Part shown: one piece after another, positions 23,464 to 24,928 of the stretch
Layout: the number at the start of each line of letters is the position of its first letter
Position numbering within the stretch: position 1 is the stretch's first letter
Assembly: GCA_027859205.1 (NCBI GenBank)
Contig: JAQIBH010000044.1
Location: 1 to 36,386 of the forward strand
From: Bacteroidales bacterium
Lineage (GTDB): Bacteria; Bacteroidota; Bacteroidia; Bacteroidales; UBA12077
Direction of reading: 5' to 3'
Length of the DNA: 36,386 nucleotides
Position numbers and translations under genes: made by a program
The notes under the pieces: model-generated
Database searches by the model: none
Told to the model about the DNA's origin: nothing
The model's input: the letters and a program-made list of their open reading frames with translations, nothing else

Positions 23464-23513
23464 TCGACAAGCTCAGTGTGACAATTTGAACTACAGCAAT
23501 TTGTCATATTGAG
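23464..23513. repeat. Left part of a dispersed palindromic (REP-like) repeat, split by the IS
   Basis: CTCAGTGTGACAA (23472-23484) pairs with TTGTCATATTGAG (23501-23513) over 13 bases, two of them G.T pairs, around a 16-base loop. The preceding TCGACAAG (23464-23471) has no partner here. Its partner CTTGTCGA lies at 24921-24928, beyond the insertion sequence. Restoring the two sides gives one continuous 21-bp stem. The CGACAAGCTCAGTGTGACA core is a sequence I recognise as a widespread dispersed palindrome. Confidence 0.85.
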
Positions 23514-23516
23514 ACC

Positions 23517-23528
23517 CTATGTTTGTAA
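23517..23528 (+). repeat. Left subterminal inverted repeat of the IS
   Basis: CTATGTTTGTAA here matches the reverse complement of 24907-24917 (CTATGTTGTAA) with one extra T. The position, 3 bases inside the inferred left tip, supports the IS1111-type assignment. Confidence 0.7.
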
Positions 23529-23557
23529 AGCATAAGTCTTTAAGATTTTTAGTAAAT

Positions 23558-23565
23558 TAGTTTTG
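23558..23565 (+). promoter_or_regulatory. Possible -7 element for the transposase gene
   Basis: TAGTTTTG fits TAnnTTTG and lies 33 bases before the transposase ATG. No convincing -33 element sits at the right distance in the integrated form. In this family promoters are often completed only when the two ends join in the circular intermediate. Confidence 0.3.
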
Positions 23566-23597
23566 ACAAAACATTACTAACTTAAACTTAAAAACTT

Positions 23598-24677
23598 ATG
23601 CTGAATAAAGTTACAACTTTAAATTTTAAAGGAGAAAATATCTACGTGGGAATTGATACACATAAAAGGAATTGGGGAGTAGCCTTATATACTAAAGATA
23701 TGGCATTAAAAACATTTACACAGAATCCTGATCCTGATTTGTTAGTTAGTTTTCTTCATAAGAACTATCCTTCAGCAGAATATCATTGTGCCTACGAAGC
23801 TGGGTTTTGTGGTTTTTGGATTCAAAAACATCTAGAATCCAAAGGTGTACATTGTATTGTAGTTAATCCTGCAGATATTCCAACAACAAATAAAGAGAAA
23901 GAATTTAAAACAGATCCTAGAGATTGTCGTAAAATTGCAAAATCACTAAGAAGTGATTTGCTTACGCCAATTCATATACACTCCAATCATAATATTGCGT
24001 GTAGAAGTATAGTTAGAACATATAATGATGTAGTTAAAAATCAAACACGATTTAAGAATAAAATTAAAAGTTTAATTAATTTTTACGGTATAAAATATCC
24101 CTGTGAATTCAATTCAGACGTTCCAATTTGGTCTAAATTATTTATTTCTTGGTTAATCCAATTAAGACTGGATTGTGAAGAAAATACATGGACTTTTCAA
24201 TACTATGTAGATGAATATATAAAAGCAAAAGAACAAGTAAAGATTATAACTAAGAAAGTTAAAGAATTATCAAAAACAAAACAGTTTTCAAAATCAGTTA
24301 ATTTATTGTGTTCTATTCCAGGGATAGGAATAATAACAGCAATGAAAATATTAACAGAATTAGAAGATATCAAAAGATTTAAAAATTTGGATCAATTATG
24401 TGGTTATATTGGTTTAGTGCCAACGACTAAATCATCTGGCGATAAGGACAAGGTAGGAGAAATGACAAATAGGGGAAATAAATATTTAAAGACAGCAATT
24501 ATTGAAAGTGCATGGAGTTCTACTCGTAATGATCCTGCGATGTCACAAAAGTATATTGAATTAAGAAAACGTATGGAAAAAAACAAAGCAATTGTGCGAA
24601 TAGCAAAAAAACTTATTGCTAGGATAATGTTTGTACTTATAAATGAAAAAGAATATGAAACAAGATTAAATATTTAA
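23598..24677 (+). CDS. IS110-family DEDD recombinase (transposase)
   Basis: A 359-residue bridge-RNA-type recombinase. The N-terminal RuvC-like DEDD domain begins with V-G-I-D-T-H-K-R-N-W-G-V. The four acidic residues are D20, E67 (C-A-Y-E-A-G), D106 and D109 (K-T-D-P-R-D). A helical linker (~200-235) leads to the Tnp_20 domain. There S-I-P-G-I-G-I-I-T-A (239-248) is followed by Y-I-G-L-V-P-T-T-K-S-S-G, where S279 or S280 is the likely catalytic serine, and N-R-G-N-K-Y-L-K-T-A (291-300). No stop or frameshift interrupts it. In characterised relatives the protein works as a tetramer with its non-coding RNA to join circular element DNA to a target at a dinucleotide core. Confidence 0.95.
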   Translation: MLNKVTTLNFKGENIYVGIDTHKRNWGVALYTKDMALKTFTQNPDPDLLVSFLHKNYPSAEYHCAYEAGFCGFWIQKHLESKGVHCIVVNPADIPTTNKEKEFKTDPRDCRKIAKSLRSDLLTPIHIHSNHNIACRSIVRTYNDVVKNQTRFKNKIKSLINFYGIKYPCEFNSDVPIWSKLFISWLIQLRLDCEENTWTFQYYVDEYIKAKEQVKIITKKVKELSKTKQFSKSVNLLCSIPGIGIITAMKILTELEDIKRFKNLDQLCGYIGLVPTTKSSGDKDKVGEMTNRGNKYLKTAIIESAWSSTRNDPAMSQKYIELRKRMEKNKAIVRIAKKLIARIMFVLINEKEYETRLNI

Positions 24678-24705
24678 GGAAAAAACATAACACTATAAAA
24701 TCTTA

Positions 24706-24874
24706 GTAAAAATGTAGAAACCGCTACGACAAGCTGGCAGCTGTAAAAAACATTTTAACACGTCTGCAATTACTGAGAGTGCGGTTCTACTTTTACAATA
24801 ATCTAATTAGGGGTATACAGCATCATTAATAATAAAATGGTCGTCTGTTGATAGAAGCATGGTTTTATAGTAAA
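24706..24874 (+). ncRNA. Candidate bridge RNA (seekRNA) of the IS, in its right end
   Basis: Two stem-loops are drawn by hand. Loop 1: an outer stem GTAAAA-GTAGAA-CCGC (24706-24724, with bulges AT and A) pairs with GCGGTTCTACTTTTAC (24781-24796). Inside is an internal loop with CGACAAGCT (24727-24735) on the 5' side and ACTGAG (24772-24777) on the 3' side. It is capped by a hairpin GCAG/CTGC, TGT/ACA and AAAA/TTTT (24737-24767). CGACAAGCT is the complement of the right target flank (24919-24927). ACTGAG matches the left flank ATTGAG in 5 of 6 bases. Loop 2: ACAG/CTGT (24817-24820, 24845-24848) is flanked by TAGGG (24808-24812) and ATAGAAG (24851-24857), which resemble the element's own tips. 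Both loops copy the target- and donor-binding plan of known bridge RNAs. Exact ends and expression are unknown. Confidence 0.65.
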
Positions 24875-24906
24875 TAATTTATTAAAATCTATGAAGAAAA
24901 CTTGTA

Positions 24907-24917
24907 TTACAACATAG
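24907..24917 (-). repeat. Right subterminal inverted repeat of the IS
   Basis: TTACAACATAG is the inverted partner of 23517-23528 and ends 1 base inside the inferred right tip. Confidence 0.7.
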
Positions 24918-24918
24918 A

Positions 24919-24928
24919 AGCTTGTCGA
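24919..24928. repeat. Right part of the palindromic repeat split by the IS
   Basis: AGCTTGTCGA is the missing arm of the repeat at 23464-23513. CTTGTCGA (24921-24928) pairs with TCGACAAG (23464-23471). AG (24919-24920) is the second copy of the core dinucleotide. The remaining bases up to 25082 show nothing recognisable beyond AT-rich spacer before xth. Confidence 0.82.

Follow-up and report, generated by a model that had tools for sequence, protein, structure and literature searches.

IS1111-group insertion sequences with a seekRNA, such as ISEc11, ISPa11, and ISKpn4 (Siddiquee et al. 2024, PMC11187229), are the closest described systems. According to that report, the group is marked by asymmetric terminal extensions (7 bp left, 3 bp right), subterminal inverted repeats that are usually 11 to 13 bp long and near perfect, and a C-terminal domain with the motif GL-P----S(T)G. 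Its seekRNAs carry the top-strand match 5' of the bottom-strand match, the reverse of the IS110 order, and a circle-junction promoter is described. For ISEc11, a short target-only RNA is given as sufficient, and which domain binds the IS ends is stated to be not known. In the account of Durrant et al. (2024, PMC11208160), donor-binding nucleotides lie in a multiloop in many IS1111 orthologues, whose donor-reading loops were inferred by inspection. REP palindromes are reported targets of ISPa11 (PMC11187229) and of IS621 (PMC11208160).

The window analyzed here, a stretch of 36,386 nucleotides from a Bacteroidales bacterium, very probably contains an IS1111-group insertion sequence with a bridge RNA (long seekRNA) in its noncoding right end, which would move by the cycle proposed below. 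The anatomy of the insertion is evident from empty sites in the same genome, four guide correspondences hold across relatives, and the RNA structure covaries. The features are listed in Table 1.

Table 1. Features of the element, its RNA, and its target (positions in the window)
Feature	Positions	Strand	Basis or remark
Host palindrome, intact left arm CGACAAGCTCAGTGTGACA	23465..23483	+	
Interrupted arm, left part TGTCATATTGAG, AG core at its end	23502..23513	+	
Insertion sequence	23512..24918	+	One AG core copy counted at left; joined flanks equal intact palindromes
Left-end tetranucleotide ACCC, putatively read by donor loop	23514..23517	+	Covaries with donor-loop 5' side in 17 elements, including this one
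TATGTTTG, start of left subterminal inverted repeat and -7-like box (TAnnTTTG)	23518..23525	+	18/18 elements
Transposase/recombinase gene, 359 aa, IS110 family	23598..24677	+	PF01548, PF02371, NF033542
Bridge RNA/seekRNA gene region	24693..24878	+	Hit 24697-24878, 101.2 bits, to a covariance model built from 15 RNAs that include this one; extent approximate
Enclosing stem, 5' strand CTATAAAA, around both loops	24693..24700	+	Fold; cognate complementarity over 18 elements
Target-loop outer stem, 5' strand	24706..24724	+	Fold; covarying helix 1
5' target guide CGACAAGCU, complementary to top strand of right flank	24727..24735	+	
Target-loop inner hairpin	24736..24767	+	Fold; covariation
3' target guide UACUGAG, for left flank	24771..24777	+	
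Target-loop outer stem, 3' strand	24781..24796	+	Fold; covariation
Donor-loop 5' guide GGGGU, against left-end ACCC	24810..24814	+	3/4 in the common register, 4/4 one base on
Donor-loop inner hairpin	24816..24850	+	Helix 4; fold
Donor-loop 3' guide AUAGAAG, repeats right end and core (24914-24920)	24851..24857	+	Held-out covariation
Enclosing stem, 3' strand UUUUAUAG (TTTTATAG)	24863..24870	+	Fold; complementarity
CTTG, -33-like box, 20 bp before TATGTTTG in the circular form only	24901..24904	+	
Right subterminal repeat TTACAACAT and 3-bp extension AGA	24907..24918	+	
Interrupted arm, right part AGCTTGTCG, AG core plus CTTGTCG	24919..24927	+	

The transposase combines a DEDD (RuvC-like) N-terminal domain with a Transposase_20 C-terminal domain (PF01548, 56.4 bits, cutoff 29; PF02371, 84.7 bits, cutoff 21.3) and exceeds the cutoff of the NCBIfam model NF033542 (IS110 family RNA-guided transposase). 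Residues D20, E67, D106, and D109 are invariant in all 8 aligned sequences, including that of the window, and in our reading would be the DEDD residues. The stretch GLVPTTKSSG agrees with the IS1111 C-terminal motif. Weak sequence matches (E about 1e-5) are found to the PDB transposases of IS621 and ISCro4, and the TIGR-Tas model NF052498 scores 28.6 bits, under its cutoff of 100. As is typical of the IS1111 group, the longer noncoding segment lies downstream of the gene, with 241 bp past the stop codon (24678-24918) versus 84 bp before the start (23514-23597). Membership in the group was judged by the domains, the motif, this noncoding layout, the terminal extensions, and the guide order. The gene is the sole match in its own genome at E values up to 0.001, in an assembly that is 95.5% complete, and has as neighbors an RsgA-type GTPase gene and an exonuclease/endonuclease-family gene.

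The element occupies one arm of a palindromic intergenic repeat. The arm pattern CGACAAGCTCAGTNTGACA, with up to 2 mismatches, has 83 matches in the same genome, and the reversed-pattern control has 0. Six intact two-arm copies fetched from this genome read TTGTCATATTGAGCTTGTCGAAATAT, the same as the joined flanks in the window. AG is present once in these empty sites and twice in the filled one, where 1405 bp separate the two copies; the insertion is therefore exact and AG (CT on the opposite strand) is its core, the dinucleotide in which the first-pass annotation had seen the two guides overlap. The repeat itself has 19-bp arms, about 18 bp apart in the fetched copies, and is scattered over 83 places; in the six fetched palindromes, one arm reads ...CTCAATATGACA and the other ...CTCAGTGTGACA. 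Elsewhere in the genome, 21 perfect 13-mer sites fit better than the arm actually occupied.

The subterminal inverted repeats (TATGTTTGTAA versus TTACAACATA) are perfect over 6 bp, or match over about 10 bp with a one-base shift after TATGTT. The terminal extensions are AGACCCT before ATGTT on the left (7 bp) and AGA after AACAT on the right (3 bp), lengths that hold with the left AG assigned to the element and ATGTT taken as the first bases of the repeat.

The RNA extends from about 24693 to about 24878, and the coordinates of the first-pass annotation (24706-24796), which had proposed a bridge RNA target-binding loop here, span the target loop only. The outer stem named in that annotation (24706-24724 with 24781-24796) is present in the minimum-energy fold, with bulges, and the two guides lie on opposite sides of the internal loop between this stem and the inner hairpin. 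In the fold of the window's RNA, the whole target loop is nested within the donor-loop stem (CTATAAAA with TTTTATAG). The segment 24690-24875 has a more stable predicted fold than most of its shuffles (z = -2.40, equalled or bettered by 4 of 200), and the longer segment 24678-24925 is unremarkable in fold energy (z = -1.36, equalled or bettered by 20 of 200). The covariance model has a single hit in the genome, and an Rfam search of the window gave no family at the gathering score.

The matches to the target can be read directly, as had been claimed: CGACAAGCT (24727-24735) is the reverse complement of AGCTTGTCG (24919-24927) in 9/9 positions, and ACTGAG (24772-24777) agrees with the left flank ATTGAG (23508-23513) in 5/6 and with the complement of the sister-arm CTCAGT (23472-23477) in 6/6. 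The single mismatch of the left guide falls at position 5 from the core. The 5' guide complements the top (transposase-sense) strand, which is the normal order for IS1111. The first-pass annotation had asked whether guides that describe the target on the strand opposite to the transposase gene are normal for right-end-encoded RNAs or a real difference; the top-strand match comes first in the published IS1111 order (PMC11187229), and strand order was rejected as a novelty for that reason.

Near full-length transposase matches define 39 loci: 38 relatives plus the element of the window itself; Tannerellaceae, Niastella, and Muribaculaceae are the hosts of the named relatives. Partial or weak matches (L010 to L030, L032, L033, and matches without a locus) were kept out of the end analysis, and repeats of a locus (L049, L050, L059, and L061) were omitted. 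One genome-contig scan gave three relatives, one scan of viral contigs gave none, and phages gave one distant hit (26.9%). Among the plasmid matches listed (5000 records), all are below 60% identity, with the top-listed one at 33%, and none was used. A fixed rule, TATGTTT upstream and CAACATAGA downstream, finds both ends in 18 of the 39 loci, including the window; these two motifs are set by the rule, so that finding them constant in the 18 carries no weight. The other 21 are short of one end under this rule, and 13 of them were recovered with a looser right-end rule. Eight loci stand outside all guide tests: L003, L035, L040, L047, and L053, in which no end was found; L064, which has an end but no hit to the RNA model; and L007 and L066, whose sequence is without the right end.

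The core recurs among these elements. At the left junction, AG precedes the four bases before TATGTTT in 18/18, and AG directly follows the right end in 16/18 (GG in L008, AAG in L054); both AGs lie outside the selection rule. When each noncoding end is scanned for complementarity to that element's own 11-base right flank, 162 letters match in all over the 18 elements, against a mean of 131.2 and a maximum of 148 in shuffles, none of 20,000 of which reaches the observed value. Pairings are permuted among elements here, and the shuffle tests in general leave shared ancestry in the figures. The best right-flank matches fall at positions 36 to 67 of the noncoding end in all 18. Counted by position from the core, 16, 18, 18, 18, 16, 16, 15, 16, 14, 7, 7, 7, and 3 of the 18 elements match, numbers that, like all the per-position counts, lean upward because positions come from the best matches. 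The sharp drop after the ninth position indicates a 5' target guide of about nine bases. L052 is a clear weak case, with 6/11 on the right flank, below the noncognate mean of 6.94.

For the 3' guide, 106 of 126 positions agree with the left flank over a 7-nt window in the 18 elements, above the maximum of 100 among permuted pairings (0/20,000). Position 5 from the core matches in 11 of 16 elements, L004 and L054 being excluded from this per-position count. It is mismatched in the other 5 of the 16, the window (23508-23513) among them. The two overlapping target matches, with the top-strand match 5' of the bottom-strand match, are found in the window and in the 18-element set alike. L054 has its left end twice in tandem (GGAGTCCCTATGTTTGTAATTGAAAAAGTTCC...); it was scored on the inner copy although the outer one seems the better fit, the flank of the latter agreeing better, by eye, with the left guide.

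The 13 recovered loci, which lie outside the model, give a held-out test, in which the guide is placed by the RNA model with 0 to 2 bases of play. Right-flank agreement is 97/117, compared with a permuted maximum of 76 (0/20,000). Two candidate right ends are present in L009, L055, and L056, where the choice was made after seeing the matches, and L043 is a second copy in the genome of L042; the stricter 9-locus subset without these four gives 64/81, with a permuted maximum of 59 (0/20,000). Poor held-out fits are L062 (4/9), L060 (5/9), and L065 (6/9). The two copies L042 and L043 adjoin another palindrome-like sequence, with a GG core: the letters are GATCCCGGATCAAGTCCGGG to the left of L042 and GGGATGACA on the right, and the RNA guide follows them (TGTCATCCC). 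Palindrome targeting may recur with another sequence in L042/L043.

Downstream of the target loop, a second loop matches the ends of the element itself. On its 5' side, at a register two bases ahead of the inner hairpin, it complements the tetranucleotide that separates the left core from TATGTTT. Across 17 elements (L004, which has no hairpin motif, is excluded), 56 of 68 positions agree, against a permuted maximum of 48 (0/20,000), and the best of eight other registers has its own observed value reached in 717 of 20,000 shuffles. The two middle positions agree in 17/17 and the outer two in 10/17 and 12/17; the transposase tree implies five or more changes of the middle left-end bases, and likewise of the guide. 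With one row per distinct pair, agreement is 46/56 and the permuted maximum 43.

The 3' side of this loop corresponds to the right end, for which the 18-element set is uninformative, CAACATAGA being part of its selection rule. Right ends in the held-out loci vary (e.g., ATAAAAG, ATAGCGG, ATAGGAG, and ATAACAG), and there the 3' side agrees in 86 of 91 positions (permuted maximum 82; 0/20,000), or 59 of 63 in the 9-locus subset (permuted maximum 58). The bases concerned belong to terminal extensions of the IS1111 type. Covariation of both sides of the loop with the element ends supports donor reading in the IS1111 group, as judged from sequence comparison.

The structure is conserved as well. 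In the alignment of 15 RNAs, 18 of the 27 consensus pairs show changes on both sides that keep the pair, and 94.5% of cells pair, versus 82.3% in shuffles (0/500); sliding the partner by one to three columns lowers pairing to 38 to 56%. The covariance model built from these RNAs has hits downstream of the transposase gene at 17 of the 24 held-out loci with E values, which are rough, of <0.01. Seven of the 24 give no RNA hit at that threshold, among them L007, which is without sequence downstream of the gene. The first-pass annotation had named as refuting its reading homologues whose loops stay constant at unrelated targets, or stems free of covariation; the loops do differ and follow the flanks of each element, the stems do show compensatory changes, and its reading as a bridge RNA target loop is supported.

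The stem that encloses both loops was treated separately. Complementarity of its upstream strand is specific to the cognate pair (185, compared with a shuffle maximum of 180.5; 0/5,000), and on this ground an artefact was rejected. Support for the downstream strand is weaker (157.5, a value that 156 of 5,000 shuffles attain), and the best-matching upstream stretch seems spurious at some loci. In L036, L044, L046, L048, L054, and L058, CTATAAAA-like strands are found both before and after the target loop. These duplicates could compete for one UUUUUAUAG strand; the window seems to keep the upstream one only. Two 5' strands pairing in turn with one 3' strand would form a possible conformational switch.

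Joining the two ends in a circle sets TTG (in TTTG, CTTG, or GTTG) 20 bp upstream of TATGTTTG in 18/18 elements (19 bp in L036), a count to be read with TATGTTT in the selection rule and the elements related. Outside the 18, the more distant relatives L037, L039, L042, L043, and L065 read TATGTTTA, with the last base of the box unmatched. The sigma-ABfr consensus is given as TTTG near -33 and TAnnTTTG at -7 (PMC7366714), and the Bacteroidota -7 box also appears in PMC9723704. The circle junction resembles a Bacteroidota promoter and would presumably act as one.

A target match of 9 plus 6 bases is short, and an AT-rich end might supply it by chance. In the window, the 9-mer arises in 14 of 50,000 Markov-1 resamples of the 3' noncoding end, and the 9-mer followed within 60 nt by at least 5 of the 6 bases of ATTGAG in 5 of 50,000. 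Comparison across relatives is far stronger evidence than such resampling; its 0 in 20,000 shuffles and the held-out test contradict coincidence, which is an exceedingly improbable source of the match. REP-linked TnpA proteins recognize a palindrome as folded single-stranded DNA, and this transposase might treat its target (CGACAAGCTCAGT) in the same way, with the RNA matches as a by-product. The target is a palindrome, and L042 and L043 also lie beside palindromic letters, but the guides track differing flanks over the 18 elements and the protein is of the DEDD/IS110 type, so that such recognition is very unlikely.

Alternatively, an RNA with the target loop only (about 24700 to 24800) could be the working form, the protein reading the ends via the subterminal repeats and the donor-like segment serving as precursor or scaffold. 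With the ISEc11 transposase, an 82-nt target-containing RNA is reported to be predominant and sufficient for transposition (PMC11187229). In the present elements, however, both sides of the downstream loop covary with bases of the element ends and the stems of the donor segment covary too, neither of which a passive precursor would need; this arrangement appears unlikely. In this lineage of IS1111-type elements, one RNA probably carries four guides, two that follow the target and two that follow the asymmetric terminal extensions, the 7- and 3-bp extensions being the donor half-sites; donor and target recognition would then both be RNA programmed, possibly with a conformational switch. If true, the four-guide reading would speak against a short target-only seekRNA being sufficient.

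For transcription, binding, catalysis, and the order of steps, we infer the following cycle. Excision would join the right end, the AG core, and the left end into a circle, whose junction would make a promoter transcribing the transposase and the RNA. The RNA would bind the transposase, and its donor loop would read the element's own ends, one side pairing with the four bases after the left core and the other corresponding to the right-end letters AUAGA(AG). The circle would insert by recombination at the AG cores, here into one palindrome arm.

The target mechanism, the downstream location, the junction promoter, and the strand order are already published for the IS1111 group (PMC11187229). 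Literature titles and abstract openings, with bioRxiv and most subscription journals outside their scope, gave no Bacteroidota IS1111 RNA and no measured donor-loop covariation in IS1111. With the 39 loci of the present comparison, RNA-guided insertion elements gain a well-documented lineage in which targets differ from one element to the next. Siddiquee et al. and Durrant et al., the two founding papers, differ on end recognition, and the covariation of the donor loop is relevant to that point; elements of this lineage also give pairs for a direct swap test.

Among known systems, TIGR-Tas shares a distant protein similarity (NF052498, below cutoff), whereas the locus described here has mobile ends, a transposase gene, and a single RNA with two loops. 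The IS621/IS110 bridge RNA (Durrant et al. 2024) shares split target guides that overlap in a dinucleotide core and a second loop for the donor ends. In IS621-like elements, the bridge RNA lies in the left end and the bottom-strand match comes first; here the RNA is in the right end, downstream of the gene, the strand order is reversed, and the donor-loop stem encloses the target loop in a multiloop. The closest likeness is to IS1111 elements with a seekRNA as reported by Siddiquee et al., which have the same DEDD/IS110-type transposase with a long downstream noncoding end, the same top-strand match 5' of the bottom-strand match, exact insertion, and a circle-junction promoter, proposed here from the letters alone; ISPa11 likewise has a REP palindrome as its target (PMC11187229). 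The differences are that the junction letters here are of the Bacteroidota promoter type, that the protein has 359 aa versus the 330 to 350 aa given for IS1111, and that, where the seekRNA paper (PMC11187229) leaves the end-binding domain open, covariation with the donor ends is found.
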